Shown: positions 7,427 to 55,911 of the stretch, piece after piece | How the letters are laid out: each line of letters starts with the position of its first letter | How positions within the stretch are numbered: position 1 is the stretch's first letter | IMG/VR virus record: IMGVR_UViG_3300023174_000044 | Location: 124,001-188,000 of that record | Length of the DNA: 64,000 nt | From: a virus | Strand: one strand, 5' to 3' | Translations under genes and position numbers: made by a program | The notes under the pieces: model-generated | The model's input: the letters and a program-made list of their open reading frames with translations, nothing else | Database searches by the model: none | What the model was told of the DNA's origin: nothing

Positions 7427-9085
7427 TTACTTGCTGGATTTATAACTAGCGTAGCCTCGACCGTAGCCACTTTGTTGGCTTTCGTCTAGCCCTGGTAATA
7501 GTCCGGCTTTTTTCATTGCGGCTTTGGTTGCTGGCCCAACATCCATGCCTGTGTCTACGATTTTTCCATCTTTTACTAAGAGAAAACGTGCTTGACTTCT
7601 AATAATAGCTGATCCGTTACTGCCACGATTTGGTGTAACACTTATATTACTTTCAGTGTCTAATACTGCTTTAACTGTGTGTCCAGCAACATCTATTGTG
7701 GTTAAAACAAAACCGTTGCCTAAATCTTGTTGTTGACTTGATTGTGCCATAGCACCGCCAGCGGCTCCAGCCAATGCGGCAGCGCCAAGTCCTCGCAAGA
7801 ATCCTCTACGATTCATATCGGCTTCCGATACACCTTGAGGTTTATCGTTGGGGTTGGTGGTCAACACAAACTCTTTGCCCTTGTTGAACAGTTTGGCCTG
7901 CATTGTTAGTGCGGCGTTGTTCGCGGTAGCCTTGTCACGGAATGAGTAAGGGTTGCCTGCTTTGTCTCTAATGAGTTTTCCATTGAGCCGGATATACCAG
8001 GTACGAGTGTCAGGTGCTGGGGCCTGGCCTTCAGGATCTCTAGCACCACGCTTGAAGCCTGTGCGATTTGTATAATAGTCGTTGCGGGCTTCGTCTAACT
8101 CTGCCTCCGCCACACCCTTCTTGGCAAAACGAGGATTGTGGAAAGCACCTTCGACGTACCATTCCATGTCATCATCATTTACTTTACAGTTCAATACTTG
8201 AACACTATAGCCTTGGTCATCTAACCAGGCCTGTGCTTGTTGTATCATTTCTTGTTTAGAAACGTCGCCACTGACGTCCAAATCGTTCCACCAACCATCA
8301 CCAACTAAGTCAGTCATTTGGTCATCCGTGTACCAACGTCCTGATTCGCCGCCGCCATTACCTGGAGCAAATTCTTTTAGGTTGCCTTGCTGGCCATACA
8401 TATCCATTAGTTGTCGAACATAGAAACTATAATGGCCACGACGGTCATTGTATTCTCTGTCTCCAAGCACAGTCTTTAATGCGGCCACAGCATCACTCAT
8501 TTCAGAACCATGCATTATTTTTAATGCGTCAGTAACCAGTGAATCAACTCGCTGTGAACTTTCTGCCATGTCTTGCTTTTTCTTTTTAGCAATAGCAATT
8601 GCGGCTTGCTGTGCGGCATTGGCAGCTTCGTCCATGGCCTTCTTGAATCCTTTGCCAGGCTCCCATCCTGCGATAGGTTTGCACTTGCAACTATCACCAG
8701 GGCACTTGCAATTCTGCATGCCACATTGCATACAGCGTTCTTTGGACTCTTGTATGCTTTCATTTGGCACACAGTTTCTTACTGACTTGCCTGTTGTAGC
8801 ACTTTTCTTTGTGCCTGCCGCATGATAGCCACTCCAGCAGTTGGTATAACCGTTGCTGTCTTTTTGGCCCTTCTTAATCTCATTGAGACTGCCATGTGTT
8901 TGACACATGCCACAGTCTTCACACACCATTTCCATCTCAACTGACTCGTTGTGTTTTTTCTTACCAGCACAATGAGCCTTTTGACTAAATCCTTTAGGGT
9001 GAGAGCAGTTGATACTGCTCTTGTATTTTTGACTCCACTGTTCCGCCACGCTCTGCGTGTTTTCAAATAAGGTATTGAGATTCAT
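7427..9085 (-). CDS. Modular capsid-targeted protein with GVAE/GVSE linkers and an internal Tat-type signal
   Basis: 552 residues. The N-terminus MNLNTLFENTQSVAEQW ends in a VAE site like the prohead-protease sites of its neighbours. Residues ~30-135 are Cys-rich (CEDCGMC, CMQCGMQNCKC), probably metal binding. Residues ~180-235 form a helical module (DSLVTDALKIMHG, DREYNDRRGHYSFYVRQLMD). Linker GVAE at 324-327 precedes a small module with TWYIRLNGKLIRDK; linker GVSE at 418-421 precedes MNRRGFLRGLGAAALAGAAG and AMAQ, a textbook twin-arginine signal, then ~100 residues. Hypothesis: packaged in the head, cut by the prohead protease, and the last fragment exported. No enzyme is recognised. Confidence 0.75.
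   Translation of the reverse strand: MNLNTLFENTQSVAEQWSQKYKSSINCSHPKGFSQKAHCAGKKKHNESVEMEMVCEDCGMCQTHGSLNEIKKGQKDSNGYTNCWSGYHAAGTKKSATTGKSVRNCVPNESIQESKERCMQCGMQNCKCPGDSCKCKPIAGWEPGKGFKKAMDEAANAAQQAAIAIAKKKKQDMAESSQRVDSLVTDALKIMHGSEMSDAVAALKTVLGDREYNDRRGHYSFYVRQLMDMYGQQGNLKEFAPGNGGGESGRWYTDDQMTDLVGDGWWNDLDVSGDVSKQEMIQQAQAWLDDQGYSVQVLNCKVNDDDMEWYVEGAFHNPRFAKKGVAEAELDEARNDYYTNRTGFKRGARDPEGQAPAPDTRTWYIRLNGKLIRDKAGNPYSFRDKATANNAALTMQAKLFNKGKEFVLTTNPNDKPQGVSEADMNRRGFLRGLGAAALAGAAGGAMAQSSQQQDLGNGFVLTTIDVAGHTVKAVLDTESNISVTPNRGSNGSAIIRSQARFLLVKDGKIVDTGMDVGPATKAAMKKAGLLPGLDESQQSGYGRGYASYKSSK
7744..7822 (-). other. Region coding an internal twin-arginine (Tat)-like signal
   Basis: Encodes residues 422-447 of the 552-residue protein: RRGFLR, a hydrophobic Ala/Gly/Leu run and an AMAQ signal-peptidase-like end. 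It begins right after the GVSE site, so a cut there would leave the signal two residues from a new N-terminus. Confidence 0.65.
8102..8116 (-). repeat. GVAE linker repeat, copy 1
   Basis: Minus strand GGTGTGGCGGAGGCA encodes GVAEA (residues 324-328). It shares GGTGTGGCGGA with the copies at 11865, 13752 and 14214, at the joints between different domains. Confidence 0.7.
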
Positions 9086-9678
9086 TATGCTTCATCCAAG
9101 TAATCGGGTGTGGCCTGTATAACTTCTACTGTGTTTTCTCTACGATGAGCACAGTACATTTCACAGGCCATCTCGGCATGTTTGAGTGATTCAAACTTTG
9201 CACTATGTGGTTTGTTTTTAATTGTAATTCTGAAACCATCATCATCGTTGCCGTGGATTTTAATTTCATGTCCGTCGTCGGTGTTGATAGTTCTAACTGA
9301 AGGCCCAATATGATCAACATCCTGTGGTATTTTATCTTTGAGATCAGAGTCTGACTTAATTTCGTTTGAAAGGTCAGCCAGGTAGTCGCCTAGTTTTTTC
9401 TTAACTGTGCTGATTACATCTTCGGATGTGACCACTTCAGAGATAGTTTCTTGATCTTCGTCTTGTTCAACACTCTCTGCTCCAACAAAGTATCCCTTGG
9501 TAGGATGCTCAGGATCAGTTCTATTGGTTAATACATTGATACTTTTTGGTTTAAACAGCGCAGGAAGTTCAGGAACTCTCCTTTGTTGTTTATTAAGTCC
9601 AGATTTAACATCCACAGGGGTAATTTCTCCCTCGGCAATTTTATCCAGCTTTGCTAAAATATCTTTTAAATCGCTCAT
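9085..9678 (-). CDS. Capsid-targeted protein of unknown function (CTS-like N-terminus)
   Basis: I place the start at the ATG at 9678, which overlaps the Dps stop as ATGA, rather than an upstream in-frame start at 9714 inside dps. The product (197 aa) begins MSDLKDILAKLDKIAEGE: a short amphipathic helix ending in IAE, like T4 capsid-targeting sequences cut after (I/L)xE. Residues ~90-180 are charged and include a beta-rich GHEIKIHGNDDDGFRITIKN module. The stop overlaps the next ATG (TAATG). No known enzyme motif. Confidence 0.68.
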   Translation of the reverse strand: MSDLKDILAKLDKIAEGEITPVDVKSGLNKQQRRVPELPALFKPKSINVLTNRTDPEHPTKGYFVGAESVEQDEDQETISEVVTSEDVISTVKKKLGDYLADLSNEIKSDSDLKDKIPQDVDHIGPSVRTINTDDGHEIKIHGNDDDGFRITIKNKPHSAKFESLKHAEMACEMYCAHRRENTVEVIQATPDYLDEA

Positions 9679-10115
9679 GCCCGCTCGCCTTTTAAGAAAC
9701 TTCTTAACATCCAACCATGCTTGGCCTGTGCGTCTAGGCGTTCAGCAATGAAGTTGGCAATGCCCTGGTTGTTTTCTTGTTCAGCACTGACAAATGTTTG
9801 ATTCAATAAATCAATTAGGGCTCCGTTGTCAGAAAGCAACTCTTCAATCATCAATCGGGCACGTGGGATCTTGGTTTGTCCTTGTATGATAGACAGTTCT
9901 TGAAAACGTTCAAAACTGCCTGGACTGTATTCTTGTAAGGTGCGAATGTATTCAGCAATTCGATCAACTGCGCCGTACACCTCTTCATAGAAGTTGGCAA
10001 AGAAATCGTGGTATTGAGCAAAGTCAGGACCTTCCACATTCCAGTGAAAATTCTGTGCTTTGATACTCAAAGCATATTGTGTGGCCAGCAAAGTCTTTAA
10101 ATCGTCCGATAACAT
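9675..10115 (-). CDS. Dps-like ferritin
   Basis: 146-residue Dps/ferritin-like protein. The intersubunit ferroxidase ligands are all present: H24 (NFHWNVEG), H36 (QYHDFF), D51 and E55 (AVDRIAEYI). Family knowledge: Dps dodecamers oxidise Fe(II) with hydrogen peroxide, store iron and protect DNA. It lacks the capsid-targeting peptide seen in its neighbours, and has no Lys-rich DNA-binding tail. It lies between two CTS-type genes with 4- and 1-base overlaps. Together with the superoxide dismutase (55106) it suggests oxidative-stress protection during infection or in the particle. Confidence 0.9.
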   Translation of the reverse strand: MLSDDLKTLLATQYALSIKAQNFHWNVEGPDFAQYHDFFANFYEEVYGAVDRIAEYIRTLQEYSPGSFERFQELSIIQGQTKIPRARLMIEELLSDNGALIDLLNQTFVSAEQENNQGIANFIAERLDAQAKHGWMLRSFLKGERA

Positions 10116-10282
10116 TATTTCTTCCTAGGTTTTACAGGCATCATTTTTTGTGCGCTGTTGGCATATTTAGCTGGTTTAGTACTCTTAGTCCTAGTTATCA
10201 CTTCGCCCATTGGTTGAGCCACGGTAGCAATACCGCCTGAGCATGTGCCGCCCATACTTTCAGTTATTTCACGTAGTCGCAT
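10115..10282 (-). CDS. Small CTS-type protein
   Basis: I choose the ATG at 10282 (preceded by a GGAG ribosome site ten bases upstream) over an in-frame start at 10336. The 55-residue product begins MRLREITESMGGTCSGGIAT; MRLREITE matches the MR..EI.E pattern of the neighbouring capsid-targeting peptides with a cut expected after E8. The remainder is small, Gly/Ser/Thr-rich, then basic (ends PVKPRKK). The 5' end overlaps the preceding gene by 14 bases. Confidence 0.62.
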   Translation of the reverse strand: MRLREITESMGGTCSGGIATVAQPMGEVITRTKSTKPAKYANSAQKMMPVKPRKK

Positions 10283-10568
10283 CGAATATAATCTCCAAGG
10301 TTTGTTGATCAACCCAGCGAGCCGATCCGTGTTCAATTCTGTGATTTTCTATCTGGAACGTGGCCAAGTTGGGCTTTAATGGCTCAAACTTAACTGTATA
10401 CATTCCTGCTGGTGCTTCTATTTGCAGTATTTCTTTTAGATACTCATTTACCCAATAGAATGTACGCTCAGCAAATAATTCATCGTTGACATAGATGCGA
10501 TAAGAAGGTGGTAATCCTTGCCAGTCACAATGCAAATCAAATAAAGCTTTTACGAATTGTTTTTTCAC
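10269..10568 (-). CDS. Hypothetical protein, beta-rich
   Basis: 99 residues, apparently starting at GTG (10568). Aromatic-rich and predicted beta (SYRIYVNDELFAERTFYW), reminiscent of carbohydrate-binding-like modules, but no family can be named. A TAAATAC late-promoter-like motif lies just upstream, with no good ribosome site. It overlaps the next gene by 14 bases. Confidence 0.6.
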   Translation of the reverse strand: MKKQFVKALFDLHCDWQGLPPSYRIYVNDELFAERTFYWVNEYLKEILQIEAPAGMYTVKFEPLKPNLATFQIENHRIEHGSARWVDQQTLEIIFDATT

Positions 10569-12221: not shown

Positions 12222-12878
12222 TCAGATAAAGTTTGGATGATTGATAACTTGCTCTGCATATAGTTTATTGGTTTTTTCACCGGGGTGCATATTATCATCT
12301 GCAAAATCTAACATTTGTGACATCCAGGAAGCATTGTCATCTGATAAAAATTGTGTTTTATCAAGCTGATTAAACAGCATTGGAAAACCTCGAGCTTGTT
12401 CCAAAAATCCCATGCCGTTTATTAATATCATTTTAGAATCATGTTGCTTGCAATAATTTTGCAACAAAATTAATTTCAACAGATCTTGTTCAATTTCTTT
12501 TCTGGTATTAAAAAAATTAATTCCAACTTCTATAATAGAGTTAGTTTCTAAATTGGTTTTTGTATTAGAGACCCGGCCACCGTTAAAAATACAAAAGTCA
12601 GTGGAGTTGTTCCTCCAAAACCAACGTCGTCGAGTTGATGTTGTTTGTATTATAACAACGTCATAATGTGTAGATAAAATTTCCTGTATTGCACGATATA
12701 AGATTTCTTGGTTGCTAAGGCCGCCATAACTGATATTGGTAATAGAAACATTTGTTTTAGTGGATACTATGTTGTACCAACATCTAGGATCATCATGATT
12801 TCCAACAATCTCTCCAAATCCGCAATAATCGCTAAACGAGCATCCTACTAACAAAATAGATTTTAAAGATGCTGACAT
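12222..12878 (-). CDS. SGNH/GDSL-hydrolase-like protein
   Basis: Start placed at 12878, where the ATG overlaps the upstream stop (TAATG); product 218 aa. The SGNH blocks can be seen: LVGCSFSDYCG (block I, Ser), ISYGGLSNQEI (Gly/Asn block) and DNMHPGEKTNKLYAE (block V, D..H). Family members are esterases or lipases acting on acyl or acetyl groups of lipids and sugars; the substrate is unknown. One of four such genes here (30065, 35470, 39836). AT-rich relative to the CTS genes. Confidence 0.6.
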   Translation of the reverse strand: MSASLKSILLVGCSFSDYCGFGEIVGNHDDPRCWYNIVSTKTNVSITNISYGGLSNQEILYRAIQEILSTHYDVVIIQTTSTRRRWFWRNNSTDFCIFNGGRVSNTKTNLETNSIIEVGINFFNTRKEIEQDLLKLILLQNYCKQHDSKMILINGMGFLEQARGFPMLFNQLDKTQFLSDDNASWMSQMLDFADDNMHPGEKTNKLYAEQVINHPNFI

Positions 12879-13297
12879 TATTTTTTGCGACCAGCTTTCA
12901 TGTTGGCACACCAGTGCGCCATGCGTTGTCTTTCGCCGGAACTGTTGGCAGCAATGCTACGCAACTTCGAAACTGATTGTTTGCAGTTGACACCCTTGCG
13001 TTTGGCCAGACCTTTGCGTCCGGGTTTTTTACCATCGGCAAAGTTTTCTTTCATAACCCAGGTGTCTGGAACTTCATGGTACCGGTCAACCCACATGTCA
13101 TGTAACTTCTGACCACTGATGCTGTGAGTTTTTGCAATACGTGTCATAATTTTGTCAATACTATCGTACACTTGATCATCGCTGGCAGACTGCAATTTTT
13201 GTTTGCGAGCTATCAATGCTGCCTTGAGTTCCGCCACTGCTTGATGGTCTTTGCTGTGGTCCATGTTTTCTGATACAATAAATTCTTGTGCTCTCAT
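12878..13297 (-). CDS. Capsid-targeted protein with basic Cys-containing C-terminal module
   Basis: 139 residues. MRAQEFIVSE is almost the T4 IP leader (MKTYQEFIAE) in pattern. An inner AVAE at 20-23 could be a second cut. The C-terminal ~55 residues (KPGRKGLAKRKGVNCKQSVS ... WCANMK) form a strongly basic module that I recall from hypothetical proteins of T4-like phages and that would suit DNA binding in the head. The ATG overlaps the upstream gene's stop by four bases. Function unknown. Confidence 0.72.
   Translation of the reverse strand: MRAQEFIVSENMDHSKDHQAVAELKAALIARKQKLQSASDDQVYDSIDKIMTRIAKTHSISGQKLHDMWVDRYHEVPDTWVMKENFADGKKPGRKGLAKRKGVNCKQSVSKLRSIAANSSGERQRMAHWCANMKAGRKK
13277..13297 (-). 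repeat. CTS-coding DNA repeat, copy 1 (MRAQEFI)
   Basis: ATGAGAGCACAAGAATTTAT plus T: the start of the 139-residue gene. Nearly the same 21 bases begin the genes at 14652 and 15321. Confidence 0.75.
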
Positions 13298-14652
13298 GCT
13301 AGTCCAATCTTTCCTGGCGCCATTGGTCCAGTTGCAATTCTTTCACCACCATCAAAGTAACGTATTTCTACGGGCATGTCTGGCCAGTTTAATCTGTAGG
13401 CAGCCATGATGCGATGATTGCCTTCGTTGACCCAGGCTTCGCCATTGTAGGCCACCATGATATAGGGCAGGTATTCTTCGTTGGGGTTACTGCCCATGGG
13501 CGGCAATTTGCCAGTCTTGTCCATGTAGTCCATCAACCACTTTAGGTCATTTTTGCGCACATTCATTTGTTCGTTGCGCATACCAGGCAACGAAGCTAGT
13601 CGCATCACACGCACTCTAGGTGGAGTTCCAACCACACCAGCAGTGGTGCTACCCATGTAAGGAACACCGTAGCTGTTACGGCCTTTGCTCTTGGCATAGT
13701 CAATTTTATCTTGCAACCACTCTTCATTGGGTACGTCTACGCTTAGTTTGCCTTCCGCCACACCTTGCTTCTTCATATACTTCTTACGCAATTTTAAGTC
13801 TGCTGGCGTTGCTTTTCTGATTAAATTCAAATATTTGTTTACTGGAATTTCTTTTATCTCAATGGGTTTGATGCCTTCTACTCCAGGAATAGAATGAAAC
13901 TCTCTGCTATTGCCACCCTGAACAAACTGCGGTTTTCCATCTGGGCCATTGAATGGTAATTTATGTAGATACACATATTCACCTTTTCTAATCTTGCCAC
14001 TGAACAAAACCATTTGTGGATCATTGGGGAACATACCTGTATCTGACCCAGCAGTAGTTAGACCCATTGCTATGGCAACTTTAGGATCAGAGGTAGCATA
14101 GATAGCATTTTGATTACTACCAGCCGCACCACCTGTATCTACCGATTGTCTTGGCTCTAGCATAGGAATCTTTTGTCTTGACCCATGCCAAAGATAGGTA
14201 TTAATAACTTTGCCTTCCGCCACACCTTGCTGTATGGTGCTTAGTCTAGCAAGTTCTTGTTCACCTTCGGGAGTCAGTAACCAATAGCCGTCGGCATCTA
14301 CAATCCAACCAGCGTCATATAAACTGTCATACACTCTACTTTGGGCACGGCTTAGACTCTGACTATCTTCTTGAAATCCCAAACCATGATCATTTGCAAC
14401 TTCAATGGCTTTAAGTAACAAGGCTTTGCCATAACCTTTGCCGCGTACATCGTCAGTTACTTCTGCCTGATTGTGTACGTCTTCAGTCTCAGGATCCCTA
14501 TAGAATGAAAAATGTCCAACATTTTTTCCATCAGCGATTGCAGTAACAGTAAAACTACTTTGATAGTTGTCTGTGGATGCTGTGCGGAATTGTACTGCCG
14601 ATGCGTCTGCTTCGCCAAGGAAGCCTTCAGTGATAAACTCTTGTGCTCTCAT
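13294..14652 (-). CDS. Three-domain capsid-targeted chain: GNAT acetyltransferase, ADP-ribosyltransferase-like, ParB/Srx-like
   Basis: 452 residues. Leader MRAQEFITEGFLGEAD has two possible cleavage sites (ITE, LGE). Residues ~20-135 are GNAT-like (VRGKGYGKALLLKAIEVAN, acetyl-CoA loop RGKGYG). GVAE 143-146 opens domain 2, residues ~150-290, with YLWHGSRQKIPMLEP and NAIYATSDPKVAIAMG, the H-G-S and (I/V)YAT patterns of ADP-ribosyltransferase folds; this call is tentative. GVAE 297-300 opens domain 3, with WVNEGNHRIMAAYRLNWPDM like the GxHR motif of ParB/sulfiredoxin proteins. T4 Alt, also head-packaged, is an ADP-ribosyltransferase, which fits. Start overlaps none; the stop overlaps the next ATG. 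Confidence 0.75.
   Translation of the reverse strand: MRAQEFITEGFLGEADASAVQFRTASTDNYQSSFTVTAIADGKNVGHFSFYRDPETEDVHNQAEVTDDVRGKGYGKALLLKAIEVANDHGLGFQEDSQSLSRAQSRVYDSLYDAGWIVDADGYWLLTPEGEQELARLSTIQQGVAEGKVINTYLWHGSRQKIPMLEPRQSVDTGGAAGSNQNAIYATSDPKVAIAMGLTTAGSDTGMFPNDPQMVLFSGKIRKGEYVYLHKLPFNGPDGKPQFVQGGNSREFHSIPGVEGIKPIEIKEIPVNKYLNLIRKATPADLKLRKKYMKKQGVAEGKLSVDVPNEEWLQDKIDYAKSKGRNSYGVPYMGSTTAGVVGTPPRVRVMRLASLPGMRNEQMNVRKNDLKWLMDYMDKTGKLPPMGSNPNEEYLPYIMVAYNGEAWVNEGNHRIMAAYRLNWPDMPVEIRYFDGGERIATGPMAPGKIGLA
13752..13764 (-). repeat. GVAE linker repeat, copy 3
   Basis: GGTGTGGCGGAAG (minus), coding GVAE 297-300 and preceded by CAA (Q), between the ART-like and ParB-like domains. Confidence 0.78.
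14214..14226 (-). repeat. GVAE linker repeat, copy 4
   Basis: GGTGTGGCGGAAG (minus), coding GVAE 143-146 between the GNAT and ART-like domains. The flanks match copy 3 for several more bases (CAAGGTGTGGCGGAAGG). Confidence 0.78.
14632..14652 (-). repeat. CTS-coding DNA repeat, copy 2
   Basis: The first 21 bases of the three-domain gene; differs from copy 1 at two positions (third-base changes). Confidence 0.75.
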
Positions 14653-15321
14653 TTAATACACCAAACTATCTATACGTTTATATTTTATATTAAACGCATT
14701 CATTAATAATTCTACTTCACGCAGGCATTCGTCTCTGCCGCCACCAACCAAGTATGCACCATTAAAACGCTTTAGTTGACCAACACTGGCCCAGCCCACA
14801 GTCATTGGATCATCTTCCATTTCTTCTATGGCACCTTGAATCAAACTTTGTGTAGTAGTACGACGATTAAAGGCAGGGAACTCTAGGTCTCTAGTGTCAG
14901 AAACTTGTTGTGCGTACATTTCACGTATGGTTGCAATGATGGTACTTGGTTCTATTCCGTGATCCATCCAGCTACGGAGGTAGCCATAACCTTTGTCTAC
15001 TATTTGAAAGCGACGCCAATCTACGGGACTTTTGGGCTCGTTGTAATAGTCATCACCATTCTCGTCTTCGCCTTCTTCGCCTTCGGTTCCTAGTGTTTCG
15101 TCCCAGAATTGTTGTATCTGTTGAACGGAATCCCCACTCAGGCCTTGATCTTCAGCATTGACAAAGAACAGCACAGGACCAGTTTGCTTTTGTACAAAAT
15201 TCATTATTTGAATAAACTTTGGATTGGCAGGTGGCCAGGGTCCGCCATTGTATTCAGGTTGAACATCAACACAAATAACTGGCTGACTTAGGCCTTCAAC
15301 AATAAAATCCTGTGCTCTCAT
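14653..15321 (-). CDS. Isochorismatase-like cysteine hydrolase with capsid-targeting peptide
   Basis: 222 residues. Leader MRAQDFIVE, cut expected before GLS. The body has the isochorismatase/nicotinamidase pattern: PVICVDVQPEY (Asp of the catalytic triad), FQIVDKGYGYLRSW (Lys) and YLVGGGRDECLREVELLM (Cys nucleophile). An acidic insert (EGEEGEDENGDD) lies mid-chain. Family members hydrolyse isochorismate, nicotinamide or similar amides; the substrate is unknown. Nicotinamidase activity would be interesting given the NAD synthetase gene here, but that is speculation. Adjacent to the next CTS gene without a gap. Confidence 0.7.
   Translation of the reverse strand: MRAQDFIVEGLSQPVICVDVQPEYNGGPWPPANPKFIQIMNFVQKQTGPVLFFVNAEDQGLSGDSVQQIQQFWDETLGTEGEEGEDENGDDYYNEPKSPVDWRRFQIVDKGYGYLRSWMDHGIEPSTIIATIREMYAQQVSDTRDLEFPAFNRRTTTQSLIQGAIEEMEDDPMTVGWASVGQLKRFNGAYLVGGGRDECLREVELLMNAFNIKYKRIDSLVY
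15301..15321 (-). repeat. CTS-coding DNA repeat, copy 3
   Basis: The first 21 bases of the isochorismatase-like gene; encodes MRAQDFI and matches copy 1 at 18 of 21 positions. Confidence 0.72.
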
Positions 15322-33681: not shown

Positions 33682-34661
33682 TCTTTACTTAAATCAATTC
33701 GACTCAACACAGGAATAAATGCCGCACGTAATTCGTCCATTTGCTTTCGAAGCCCTGCAGGAGTCAACTCATCTTCAGCATAGAAAATAACATTGGCTTC
33801 TCTGTATTCTGCATATTCTCGGCTACGAACCGCGGCACTAAATTGTTGTTGATACCAGGCAACAATTTCTCGATCTGTCCCAGGAGGCAATTGTATACTC
33901 CAGGCCGCATATACATTGATGCCAGGGGCAATGGTGTTCAACAACGGGACACCAGGAAACTGTGCCATCTTTTGTGTGCCTGTGAACCCAATAGGCTTTA
34001 CCTTGCCTGCGTCAACCAGAGATTTGGCCACTGTAATCGGTATAATAGCAAATTCAGTACCTGTTTTGCCGTCATAACTTGCGGCACTGGTTACTGCTGG
34101 CATAGGGCCGTTGAACCTTACAGGATTAACCATGTCTCTATTGCCTTTTCCTTTGTCCATCAAGTATTCATATGCTGTGCGATGTGCTCCACCGCCGACT
34201 GCAATATTAATTGTTCTGCCTGACTGAATATACTTCACAAACTCCTGTGGAGTATTAACACCGCTCTTGACACCGGCCACTAATACCAATGGTGATTTGC
34301 CCATGGTCAACACATCAATGAATGAGTCGTAATTGTATTTCTTTATATTCTTTTCCCAAATATCATTTGTTACATAACTGCTCATGTGGCTGGGCAAGTT
34401 AATAGTATGGCCGTCATTGACTGCTTCCAAAAACCGGTTGTTGGCAATAACCGAATCGGCTCCGGGAATGTTTTGCACAACATAAACAAATTTAGGGTTT
34501 TGTTTCTGTACAATATCCGCCAGTTTACGAAAGGCCATTTCATTGCCAGCACCGGGTGTGTTACCAATATACACAGTGACAGGCTTAGTTGGTTCCCATG
34601 CGTGAACTAGTGTGCTTGCAGTAACAAGCAATAAAGCAACAAACTTTTTTAATGTACTCAT
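33678..34661 (-). CDS. TctC/Bug-type periplasmic substrate-binding protein (tripartite tricarboxylate transporter)
   Basis: 327 residues with signal peptide MSTLKKFVALLLVTASTLVH (AW follows). PVTVYIGNTPGAGNEMAFRK, NIAVGGGAH, the GKVKPIGFTG strand and FPGVPLL are typical of Bug receptors, which bind carboxylates in the periplasm and deliver them to a TctA/TctB membrane pair. Bug proteins are hugely expanded in Burkholderiales, which hints at the host. No transporter membrane genes are nearby, so it would use host TctAB or act as a binding protein. AAGGAG ribosome site, and an insulating terminator upstream. Confidence 0.87.
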   Translation of the reverse strand: MSTLKKFVALLLVTASTLVHAWEPTKPVTVYIGNTPGAGNEMAFRKLADIVQKQNPKFVYVVQNIPGADSVIANNRFLEAVNDGHTINLPSHMSSYVTNDIWEKNIKKYNYDSFIDVLTMGKSPLVLVAGVKSGVNTPQEFVKYIQSGRTINIAVGGGAHRTAYEYLMDKGKGNRDMVNPVRFNGPMPAVTSAASYDGKTGTEFAIIPITVAKSLVDAGKVKPIGFTGTQKMAQFPGVPLLNTIAPGINVYAAWSIQLPPGTDREIVAWYQQQFSAAVRSREYAEYREANVIFYAEDELTPAGLRKQMDELRAAFIPVLSRIDLSKE

Positions 34662-34686
34662 ATTATCTCCTTAAATATACTTAATT

Positions 34687-34723
34687 AAAAAAACAAGACC
34701 AGTAAAATTTTTACAGGTCTTGT
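34687..34723 (-). terminator. Rho-independent terminator upstream of tctC
   Basis: ACAAGACC (34693-34700) and GGTCTTGT (34716-34723) pair, with an inner GTAAA/TTTAC stem; on the minus strand seven T follow (34687-34693). It stops minus-strand RNA antisense to the methyltransferase gene before it reaches tctC. A TATATTTA stretch between it and the tctC ATG may be that gene's promoter. Confidence 0.65.
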
Positions 34724-34754
34724 AAAATTATTTATCTCAAAGGTAAAATTTTAT

Positions 34755-35480
34755 ATGAATACCAAAATTTTTGACTTATTAACTAAAAATTTGCAGGCCG
34801 CCTTTAATTTACCCAAGTATCAGAGAATTCTTGACACCATTGGGCCGGACACAGAAGTTGACAAACTTCCTTGGACTCCGGCTAGATATCGTAAATTCAA
34901 AGACGCTGTGGATGCTGAATTGCAGTTGTCCTGCGATTATGTTGGTACATTAAAGAACATAACAGCTGATCTCAGCGAACGTTATATCAATCACTTTTTT
35001 GGCGAAATCTGGAAACCCAGAACTGGCGACTATGACTACACAGGCTGGCAGTTGGCTGAAGAAATTAATCAACTCAATCCACATAGTGTACTAGATGTTG
35101 GTTGTGGATATCATCCTTTTAAAGGTCGTATTAACAACGTTGTTGGTATTGATCCCTATAACAACTGCGCCGATTACATGGTTGACATTCTGGACTATGC
35201 TGGTAGTCACGATGTTATTATTGCTTTGGGATCAATTAACTTTAATAGTCGTGATGAGATTGAATCACGCTTTGCTAAGTGTGTTGATCTATTAGAATCA
35301 GGCGGCAAATTTTATCTACGAGCAAACCCTGGAATCACACACAAAACAGGACCATATGTTGACATATTCCCCTGGAGTTTTGAAATAGTCAAAGAGTTTG
35401 CTGACAAGTACAAGTTAAAGTTGTTAGAGTTTAAAAAAGACAACAACGATAGACTGTACTTTGTGTATTCTAAACCTTGA
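34755..35480 (+). CDS. Class I SAM-dependent methyltransferase
   Basis: 241 residues. Motif I HSVLDVGCGYHPFKG (~110-124), VGIDPY as the acidic strand 2, YAGSHDVIIALGSINF as motif IV and LLESGGKFYLRANPG as motif VI. The N-terminal ~75 residues may form a substrate domain. Plus-strand, flanked by minus-strand genes; 3' end overlaps the convergent gene by 11 bases. Substrate unknown. Confidence 0.75.
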   Translation: MNTKIFDLLTKNLQAAFNLPKYQRILDTIGPDTEVDKLPWTPARYRKFKDAVDAELQLSCDYVGTLKNITADLSERYINHFFGEIWKPRTGDYDYTGWQLAEEINQLNPHSVLDVGCGYHPFKGRINNVVGIDPYNNCADYMVDILDYAGSHDVIIALGSINFNSRDEIESRFAKCVDLLESGGKFYLRANPGITHKTGPYVDIFPWSFEIVKEFADKYKLKLLEFKKDNNDRLYFVYSKP

Positions 35481-36111
35481 TATCTTTGATTAAATCAAAG
35501 GCAGCCAAATGAGCTTGTTCTAAAGGGTGTAGTGTGTTGCTAATAGGATATCCTTTGACCTGGCTCCACTCTAAGAAATTCTTATCTTCAAACTTGGTCA
35601 TGTAAGGACGTACATAGTTTTGTAGGTCCATAATTCCTGGCGGTGCATGATATTTACTGTCAAAGGTTAAGTCGTCCATGTAGGTCATTATAAATGGACA
35701 GTTCTTTTCTTTAAGTGTGTCTATGGCCAAGCGCATACACATTAGAGTATTGAGTTTATCTCTGTACTCAGAGTGTAGGTTTTTAAAATAAAAAGTAGAA
35801 TTGGTATCTTTTTCAATAGGGCGTAGTGTTAGCCAATCATCTTTGTGATCAGTGTGATCAAATCGATCAATCCAGGTCCATCCGATCACAAACAAGCTGT
35901 GTTCATTGCAGCCTGCTTGATTTAGCACACGGTCAAGTATGCTGAGATTGCCAATGCCTGGGCGGGCATAACAAATATATTGGTAATCTAAATGATTAGC
36001 AAGATGTGCGGGCCAGGTTAGTTTACTGGGTGTGGCCCAAAGAGCACCATTTCCGTCGTCAGATAAATCTGTTCCAAAAATGAAACTGCACCCAAAGCTT
36101 TTGAGTTTCAT
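35470..36111 (-). CDS. SGNH-hydrolase-like protein
   Basis: 213 residues. MKLKSFGCSFIFGTDL (block I), YARPGIGNLSIL (Gly/Asn) and NTLHPLEQAHLAAF (block V His). Similar proteins are common in T4-like cyanophages. Substrate unknown. Confidence 0.6.
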   Translation of the reverse strand: MKLKSFGCSFIFGTDLSDDGNGALWATPSKLTWPAHLANHLDYQYICYARPGIGNLSILDRVLNQAGCNEHSLFVIGWTWIDRFDHTDHKDDWLTLRPIEKDTNSTFYFKNLHSEYRDKLNTLMCMRLAIDTLKEKNCPFIMTYMDDLTFDSKYHAPPGIMDLQNYVRPYMTKFEDKNFLEWSQVKGYPISNTLHPLEQAHLAAFDLIKDIKV

Positions 36112-36119
36112 AGGTATAG

Positions 36120-36662
36120 TTATATACCAGCGGCGGCCTGTAGACTGCGAATATCTTTTTCGCGTTCAAAAATTTGTTTTGGTTGAATACCTGCGGCTAT
36201 GCGCATTTCGTTTAGTCCTGACTCTTTTTCTTTACGATACAGTTTAGGACTTAGCGGAACTAAGCTATCAAATATTTCTTCAGTAAAAGGGTGCTCTTTT
36301 CCTTCGTAGCGCATGGTCCAGTCGTCAGGGCCAAACTCGGTGAGTGTACTTAAATCGTCAACTAACTCTGCTGTGTGCTTGCCAGAAGTACTACGTCTAC
36401 GCATTTCTACGTAGACCAGATATCTACCGGCTTTGATTTCTCCTGGACTGGTGTCTGAATCCAACACAAAGTCATAGCCTTTTTCAAACCAATTCACAAG
36501 ATCCTTTGCGGCTTGTTTACTGCGAACAAAAAAGCTTAGTACAATAATTTCGTCGTCGTCGCCCATTTTACTAGCAAATTCGTCCACGTGAATTGTGGGC
36601 TTCATCATGCCCTCTAGGTCCTTGTACTCAAGGCCTTCAAACAGCGGCTGGTTGTTGTGCAT
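36120..36662 (-). CDS. Conserved T4-like phage protein
   Basis: Start at 36662, with a GGAGG ribosome site six bases upstream, rather than the in-frame ATG at 36674. 180 residues with VDEFASKMGDDDEIIVLSFF, DLVNWFEKGYDFVLDSDTSP and YLVYVEMRRRS, a set I recall from conserved hypothetical proteins of cyanophages. Function unknown. It overlaps the gene upstream by 26 bases. Confidence 0.75.
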   Translation of the reverse strand: MHNNQPLFEGLEYKDLEGMMKPTIHVDEFASKMGDDDEIIVLSFFVRSKQAAKDLVNWFEKGYDFVLDSDTSPGEIKAGRYLVYVEMRRRSTSGKHTAELVDDLSTLTEFGPDDWTMRYEGKEHPFTEEIFDSLVPLSPKLYRKEKESGLNEMRIAAGIQPKQIFEREKDIRSLQAAAGI

Positions 36663-37227
36663 CTTGTCCTCCAATTGCTGGTTGTTGTACGTCGTCTTGC
36701 CGGAATTCTTCTTGGTCTAGATCTTCTTCGTAGGCGCTGTCTAGATCTTCTAGGTCAATTTGTTCGCCTTCCATCTCAATGGAGCCTGTGCGAATATCAG
36801 ACATCAATGTCTTGGGCATGACTATTTCAACCAGCCATACTTTTTTATCGATTAATCGTGCTTTGTGTGTACCAGGAATGAAATCATCGGGATCCTCAAT
36901 TTTAATTGGAATCTTTATGTTTTTCTTCATGTATTTTACTTCGCAGTCAAAGGGAAGTAAACGACGAGCCCCACGTGGGTCGGGCATGAGTTTTTCAGGC
37001 CACATAAAAATACAGCCAACTTTGTATTTTCCGATAGTTGGACCTTGTACTAGTTCACCCAAAATCCAATTTTTAAATGCATAGATATCTAGCTCATCCA
37101 GCACACGTTCAAAGTCCAACAGGCTCAACAGACTACCTTCAGACATGTAGATGTTTTTAATATTGTCGGCTACCAGCCAGTAATCACTGTGGTCTTTGAA
37201 GATATCTTTATCAAGTTTATTGCTCAT
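36637..37227 (-). CDS. Conserved hypothetical protein
   Basis: 196 residues: a basic/beta core (KVGCIFMWPEKLMPDPRGAR) with an acidic, Gln-rich C-terminal tail (DLDSAYEEDLDQEE). Likely paired with the following gene. An AATAAATAAT motif lies 12 bases before the ATG. Function unknown. Confidence 0.68.
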   Translation of the reverse strand: MSNKLDKDIFKDHSDYWLVADNIKNIYMSEGSLLSLLDFERVLDELDIYAFKNWILGELVQGPTIGKYKVGCIFMWPEKLMPDPRGARRLLPFDCEVKYMKKNIKIPIKIEDPDDFIPGTHKARLIDKKVWLVEIVMPKTLMSDIRTGSIEMEGEQIDLEDLDSAYEEDLDQEEFRQDDVQQPAIGGQDAQQPAAV

Positions 37228-54772: not shown

Positions 54773-55093
54773 TTAAACGCTAAAACTTGACCCGCATCCA
54801 CAGGTTGTAGCGGCCTGTGGGTTATTGATCACAAAACTACTGCCCCATTCGTTTTCATCAAAGCGAATTTCGCATTCTTGCATGTAGGTCATTGACATAG
54901 AGTCAACCACAATAGTTAAATCGTCAAACTTGAAATCAAAATCGTCTTCATTTTGTTCTTCATCAAAGGTAAATCCGTATTGAAAACCCGAGCATCCTCC
55001 ACCTTGCACAAACACACGGAATTTGAGGTTGGGATTGTTTTCTTCTAGTTTTAACTCTTTGAGCCGAGTAACTGCTGATTCTGATATGTTCAT
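54773..55093 (-). CDS. A-type iron-sulfur carrier (IscA/ErpA/HesB-like)
   Basis: 106 residues. VFVQGGGCSGFQYGFTFDEE and TTCGCGSSFSV supply the three conserved Cys that hold a 2Fe-2S or 4Fe-4S cluster for delivery. Family length is ~107. Such carriers occur in T4-like cyanophages. Twelve bases after the superoxide dismutase gene and likely co-transcribed with it. Confidence 0.93.
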   Translation of the reverse strand: MNISESAVTRLKELKLEENNPNLKFRVFVQGGGCSGFQYGFTFDEEQNEDDFDFKFDDLTIVVDSMSMTYMQECEIRFDENEWGSSFVINNPQAATTCGCGSSFSV

Positions 55094-55105
55094 AATGTAT
55101 GTATA

Positions 55106-55654
55106 TTATAGGCGTTGGTTGCAAACGTCCCAGTCAATGATCTTCCAGATATTGTCTAGGTACTTTTCTTTATCACTTTGATAGTCCAGAGCCCAAACAT
55201 GCTCCCACCAATCCACCAACACACAGATGTCTGTGCGTACTGCATGATTGGCAATGGTCTTGATATCTCCCCCAGTGCTCAAGTAGACCCAACCAGATCC
55301 TTGAATCTTCATTGCAGTTTCCTTAAAAGCTTCTCGAAAATCTTCATAGGTTTTAAACTTTTCTTCTATCAGCGCAAGCACAGCGCCACGAGGGCGGTTG
55401 GCACCTTTTGGAGCTCGAAGCTGAGGGAAAAACTTGTTGTGTAAAAAACTGCCAGCACGATTAAAATCCGCATTACCTTCTCCTGCGTTGTAACGCTTGG
55501 CGTAGCCTCGGGCCAGGTGTCCATAATGGTATTCTAAGCTTTCTTTACTCAGCACTGGCTCAAGGTCTTTTTCGCCGTAAGGTAAAGGAGTAGTTTCCAG
55601 CTTGGCCGGACGGGTGCTGGCTTCCACAAGATTGATGTGATCACGTAATTCCAT
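55106..55654 (-). CDS. Fe/Mn superoxide dismutase with capsid-targeting leader
   Basis: 182 residues. Metal ligands are all present: H43 (EYHYGHLARGY), H72 (FLHNKFF), D148 and H152 (VLVDWWEHVW). Unlike bacterial SODs, which begin at about the LPY segment (residue 24 here), it carries an extra N-terminus MELRDHINLVEASTRPAKLE; INLVE is a prohead-protease-type site like the CTS proteins at 7427-15321. I infer that it is packaged in the capsid, cut after E11. It would remove superoxide during entry or protect the genome. Confidence 0.9.
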   Translation of the reverse strand: MELRDHINLVEASTRPAKLETTPLPYGEKDLEPVLSKESLEYHYGHLARGYAKRYNAGEGNADFNRAGSFLHNKFFPQLRAPKGANRPRGAVLALIEEKFKTYEDFREAFKETAMKIQGSGWVYLSTGGDIKTIANHAVRTDICVLVDWWEHVWALDYQSDKEKYLDNIWKIIDWDVCNQRL

Positions 55655-55662
55655 ATATGTAT

Positions 55663-55911
55663 TTACCGGCGTCGAGTGATACGCCCACGTGTGAGATCAT
55701 ATGGACTAAACTCTACTTCTACTGTGTCGCCTAGTAGAATTTTAATGTTATGTTGTCGCATTTTTCCTGAAATTACGCCTGTTACAGGCTGTTCCATGTG
55801 TGCAAGTTTTACTCTAAACATTGCATTGGGCAACACGTCGATCACTTGCCCATCTATTTTAAAACCTTCTTCTTTAGCCACTTTTTGAAATATTTCCTTT
55901 TTAGTAAACAA
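55663..55911 (-). CDS. Translation initiation factor IF-1 homologue
   Basis: 82 residues. [40 protein letters not shown] and [15 protein letters not shown] are the IF-1 signature (S1/OB fold, ~72 aa). The first ~18 residues ([18 protein letters not shown]) are extra and basic. IF-1 binds the ribosomal A site during initiation; a phage copy could bias initiation to viral mRNA. Eight bases upstream of the SOD gene. Confidence 0.92.

Follow-up and report, generated by a model that had tools for sequence, protein, structure and literature searches.

Results

The window analysed here is a 64,000-nucleotide stretch from a large freshwater phage, corresponding to positions 124001-188000 of a 262,308-base virus record (G000). 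Its minus strand carries an intact gene for a Fe/Mn superoxide dismutase (SOD) of 182 amino acids (55106..55654), which begins with ATG and was identified from the open reading frame, Pfam, AlphaFold and Foldseek; the N-terminus of the protein reads MELRDHINLVEASTRPAKLETTPLPYG. Two conserved neighbours flank the gene on the same strand, an IF-1-like protein of the translation initiation factor type upstream (55663..55911; Pfam eIF-1a, 1.7e-20) and an IscA-type Fe-S carrier downstream (54773..55093; Pfam Fe-S_biosyn, 9.1e-17). At least 535 relatives of the window SOD exist. We confirmed 270 relatives in IMG/VR and examined the best 80 of the 270 as close relatives; the IF-1-like gene was found directly upstream of SOD in 54 of 78 and the IscA-type gene directly downstream in 61 of 79. 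The closest long relative is a 345 kb genome (G001) encoding an identical SOD, with 338 of its 427 ORFs matching G000 at a median identity of 100%.

A TAAATA motif (55660..55665, minus strand) lies 5 nt before the ATG and shares nucleotides with the stop codon of the upstream IF-1-like gene. It is conserved 4-5 nt ahead of the SOD start codon in 77 of the 80 close relatives and in 55 of 79 diverse ones. The late promoter of phage T4 is TATAAATA, which this motif resembles. In the near-identical G001, TAAATA also precedes the portal, gp25-like and tail-completion genes, and an ATG follows within a few nucleotides at 28% of TAAATA sites, compared to 12-20% for permutations of the letters. The G001 genes with the motif were enriched for homologs of MS-detected proteins of Pseudomonas phage PA5oct (7/8 vs 34/81, p = 0.017, with SOD itself counted). 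We infer that TAAATA acts as a T4-like late promoter, which would give rise to a nearly leaderless mRNA. Across G001, the motif occurs close to the start codon of ~39 genes, often at a distance of 4-7 nt.

The window protein has the two-domain SOD fold, as seen from Pfam (Sod_Fe_C, 3.7e-21; Sod_Fe_N, 9.7e-7), from an AlphaFold model with a mean pLDDT of 91.6 and a confident, compact SOD body at ~95, and from a Foldseek comparison with SOD structures (best E 9.5e-14, TM ~0.8). An earlier sequence-only reading of this DNA had credited the enzyme with all four metal ligands, and these were indeed found, as H43, H72, D148 and H152 of a predicted mature SOD that would begin at Ala12 (55109..55621, minus strand). 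The ligands, the gateway residue Y51 and the second-sphere H137 are invariant in an alignment of 47 phage relatives with identities down to ~50%, which points to selection for catalysis in the phage SODs.

The fold and the four ligands are common to cellular Fe/Mn SODs of the SodFM3/SodFM4 type, but at ~30-40% identity the phage enzymes differ in having an alpha-hairpin that is ~20 residues shorter and an added N-terminal leader. A C-terminal second-sphere His is a feature of most SodFM3/4 proteins (PMC10172142), and the window SOD is like them in this respect. SodFM4 proteins are marked by a C-terminal water-coordinating His and by an HXXXHH motif that has lost its terminal His (PMC10172142). 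The phage SODs have His137, but their motif reads HYGHLA, so that not one but both terminal His residues of the cellular motif are gone, the last and the one at the fifth position.

Residues 1-11 of the window SOD, MELRDHINLVE (55622..55654, minus strand), form a predicted capsid-targeting propeptide with a predicted cut after Glu11, on the basis of P1 and P3 conservation, the alignment and a helix in the AlphaFold model. This helix spans residues 3-12 and was predicted with low confidence (pLDDT ~51). The region reads MELRDHINLVE/ASTRPAKLE (a slash marks the predicted cut here and below), with residue 11 at P1, and the translation of the ORF bears out the earlier observation of INLVE followed by AST. 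The figure of 20 extra N-terminal residues given at that time was too high. The actual number is ~16-17, as bacterial SODs align from query residue ~18-20, with residue 3 of E. coli FeSOD, for example, aligned to residue 20. The protease gp21 of T4 cleaves after L/I-X-E, and the targeting sequence of IPIII is its first 10 residues (PMC9026906). The window leader has both the length (~10-20 residues) and the terminal L/I-X-E of a T4-type propeptide.

Comparison of related phages, which had been proposed as a check, showed a leader of 8-15 residues ending in L/I-X-E in all 80 close relatives (the best 80 of 270) and in the diverse set. Among the close relatives, both the sequence and the length of the part before the predicted cut differ (MREQIDLIE, MDTAASIYDFINIVE, MNHVAITDYMQIIE, MHYEIRQDLNLVE and others), and the segment after it is nearly constant (ASTRPAKLETTPLPYG). 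Glu11 is invariant in the 47-row alignment of phage relatives. In the wider family, we compared 103 distinct leaders with P1 at residue 8-15. P1' was Ala, Gly or Ser in 90 and another residue in 13, P3 was Leu or Ile in 102, and P1 was Glu in every one; this invariance beside variable neighbours rules out the L/I-X-E site as a chance match. Column entropy was 0.00 at P1 and 0.65 at P3, compared to 2.2-3.2 at positions -1, -3, -5 and -6, and the 54 leaders with a downstream TRPAKLET segment had 52 different upstream halves. Both GAA and GAG are used for the P1 Glu, indicating that selection acts at the protein level. The conservation at P1 and P3 therefore supports the capsid-targeting reading of the leader.

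The leader was absent from the SODs of the five nearest bacterial genome hits, three of which have longer signal-like N-termini and two none. It was also absent from SOD matches in the PDB, where alignments begin at about residue 18-20 of the query, and was not seen in 20 plasmid-record SODs, with alignments starting mostly at residue 15-24. A common bacterial SOD feature is thus ruled out by the genome, PDB and plasmid comparisons, and an extension in host SODs too, named beforehand as evidence against a phage leader, was not seen in the nearest and sampled bacterial SODs. The related SOD of Vibrio phage 2.275 (L003:2968-3537) has no N-terminal leader. Its C-terminus, MLDE/SVNIRHLINFISK, looks like a counterpart of the leader helix, with an L-X-E site, at the other end of the protein; such a mirror-image tag (LDE/SVNIRHLINFISK) showed no clear enrichment in this phage, with 13 tails compared to 3-10 in internal control windows.

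The distant cluster of genes with capsid-targeting (CTS) leaders, to which the SOD leader had been likened, is real and lies on the minus strand at 12878-15321 of the window. The three proteins start with MRAQEFIVSE (12878..13297), MRAQEFITE/G (13294..14652) and MRAQDFIVE/G (14653..15321); the second carries a GNAT acetyltransferase domain (Acetyltransf_1, 3.2e-6), and the first and third had no Pfam or PHROG match. T4 ipII/ipIII start with MKTYQEFIAE/A, similar to MRAQEFITE/G of the window cluster and to MRAQDFLTE/S of one SOD clade among the relatives, whose other members begin with MRARDFLTE/S, MRATEFLTE/S or MRAVEFLTE/S. The leader of the window SOD itself is of a different type (MELRDHI), and lacks the QEFI core of T4 ipII/ipIII.

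In one relative (G003), the SOD gene (67083-67616) comes after genes starting with MRARQFILE, MRARDFIKE and MKASDFLNE, and in another (G002) it lies near genes starting with MRAKQF, MRAKDL and MKPSEFINE. In both genomes the MRAxxF SOD gene thus sits in a run of genes with such leaders, so that one leader type, also found in the window cluster, is carried by SOD and by unrelated proteins adjacent to it. Judged from sequence, this sharing is the strongest single argument for targeting. In the tree, the MRAxxF and YNFI leader types each form one clade, and each therefore looks like one replacement event.

Several further observations concern this part of the genomes. A 552-aa protein of the window (7427-9085, minus strand) starts with MNLNTLFE/N...WSQKYKSSINCSHPKGFSQKAHCAG, and a protein with a similar body in G006 (34476-36722) has a different leader, MKSKDFLNE/K, an apparent leader exchange on another putative cargo. 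An internal ATG at 10115-10336 (minus strand) yields a further CTS-like N-terminus, MRLREITE/SMGG. Adjoining the CTS cluster is a gene for a Dps/ferritin-like protein (9675-10115, minus strand), which has no obvious leader and is the second gene of an antioxidant type here. A similar Dps/ferritin-like protein (MDEKFINSLKIAFASQYSFAIKAQNFHWNVEG) is encoded in the corresponding cluster of G002 (172842-173285).

A T4-type (gp21-type) S77 prohead protease scored above the cut-off in G001, G002 and G006. The protease and the other head genes looked for were not found in G000, a 262-kb record that is a fragment. PA5oct (Arenbergviridae) matched 89 ORFs of G001, among them those for the major capsid protein, the portal and the protease. 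A strict L/I-X-E site at residues 7-16 was present in 14 G001 proteins, compared to an average of 6 across six windows farther downstream. The major capsid protein of G001 (193560-194465, minus strand) starts with MSQELLEGRWDETKEALLEGLKGNRRNSMNVILENTRKYLKENASAG and has several L/I-X-E sites, the last of which (LKE/N) is probably where it is cut during maturation.

The SOD ortholog of PA5oct, EST35_0261, is 37% identical to the window SOD and annotated as 'hypothetical protein'. It starts with MNDSIKKYISIAE/AASS, and has a leader with I-A-E/A at the position matching that of the window SOD, in a phage that shares the head genes and protease of the group. Its gene neighbours, unlike the IF-1-like and IscA-type genes of the window, encode ClpS, ClpX and FtsH. 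PMC6950013 refers to an analysis of the PA5oct structural proteome, and the record of EST35_0261 carries the note 'ESI-MS/MS'. The same mark is found on the RNR subunits, thymidylate synthase, FtsH and ClpP of PA5oct; since these are non-structural enzymes, the mark supports, and does not prove, a location in the head. Enrichment of N-terminal L/I-X-E sites among MS-detected PA5oct proteins was weak (p = 0.01 with lenient and p = 0.10 with strict settings), and one of the control windows was as strong (p = 0.014).

Discussion

Our results suggest that this SOD is packaged into the phage head by means of a T4-type targeting propeptide, a reading to which we assign a probability of roughly three in four. 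The T4 internal proteins IPI, IPII and IPIII likewise have a short N-terminal leader with L/I-X-E followed by a small residue. In contrast to those proteins, the predicted cargo here can be recognised as an enzyme, and its catalytic residues are conserved. Counting against this reading are the leaderless SOD of Vibrio phage 2.275, the 13 leaders with a P1' residue other than Ala, Gly or Ser, the weak enrichment of sites and the marked non-structural enzymes in PA5oct, and the failure to find the protease gene in G000.

The gene could also encode an ordinary auxiliary metabolic enzyme that works in the host cytoplasm during infection. The N-terminal helix would then have a structural or regulatory role, such as oligomer contact, membrane or nucleoid binding, or stability, rather than serve as a targeting propeptide. 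The IscA and IF-1 neighbours are indeed genes of a cytoplasmic type, and the PA5oct SOD adjoins ClpS, ClpX and FtsH. However, the sole invariant position of the leader is the Glu at the protease P1, accompanied by Leu/Ile at P3, whereas the rest of the leader changes freely in sequence and length, and some versions match the leaders of unrelated cluster proteins. The leader is also modelled with low confidence next to a well-defined body, and the promoter-like TAAATA is common to virion genes. We therefore consider a purely cytoplasmic enzyme unlikely.

Less probable still is that the leader directs SOD to the head but catalysis is beside the point, the protein serving as a metal store, or as an internal protein with a structural or spacer role. 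The internal proteins of T4 differ widely and have the targeting sequence alone in common (PMC3012670), and the loss of both terminal His residues of HXXXHH in the phage SODs is a further point in favour. The invariance of the four ligands, Y51 and His137 across the 47 relatives, however, speaks against this. Finally, a mis-annotated start, with translation beginning within the leader and hence no extension, was rejected as highly improbable: the identical G001 gene has no Shine-Dalgarno-like hexamer ahead of its ATG, but the leader with its conserved P1 Glu (encoded by either codon) and P3 Leu/Ile occurs in all 80 close relatives, TAAATA is spaced to this exact ATG in 77 of them, and the window protein has no further Met between the leader and the SOD body.

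Packaging by a T4-type propeptide could proceed as follows. The Fe/Mn SOD would be expressed late and made as a precursor, whose first 11 residues may form a short amphipathic helix similar to T4 capsid-targeting sequences and attach the enzyme, already folded, to the core of the prohead. The gp21-type (S77) prohead protease would then cut after Glu11 (LVE/A), such that mature SOD stays within the head. There it might shield packaged DNA from superoxide, for example in sunlit water, and/or enter the next host along with the DNA and blunt an oxidative burst or superoxide early in infection. From sequence and predicted structure, we infer that the leader is cleaved, that the enzyme is packaged and active in the particle, and that this is of benefit to the phage.

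A virion SOD has a precedent in some algal viruses, which infect eukaryotes. The Cu/Zn SOD of chlorovirus PBCV-1 (A245R) is expressed late and packaged in the virion, and infection with PBCV-1 results in less superoxide than infection with a relative that has no SOD gene (PMC7019647). It is thus, like the proposed phage protein, a late viral SOD in the virion, but it has the unrelated Cu/Zn fold and is not reported there to have a leader of this kind. We found no report of SOD in phage heads in the open-access literature searched, and SOD is unmentioned in the MIJ3, PA5oct and Callisto phage papers.

More broadly, the heads of jumbo phages of this group may contain active SOD that enters the host with the DNA as an immediate shield against the superoxide raised by infection. 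SOD would then be one of several enzymes loaded through interchangeable leaders. We put this forward tentatively, and at somewhat less than even odds. The cultured phage PA5oct makes SOD packaging testable. If SOD is indeed packaged, it would be the first known antioxidant enzyme that a phage loads into its head by a T4-type leader, as judged from the open-access literature searched, and a counterpart of the chlorovirus virion SOD. A short N-terminal helix with an L/I-X-E that is conserved within an otherwise variable leader may, in addition, provide a sequence rule to predict other packaged enzymes of jumbo phages.
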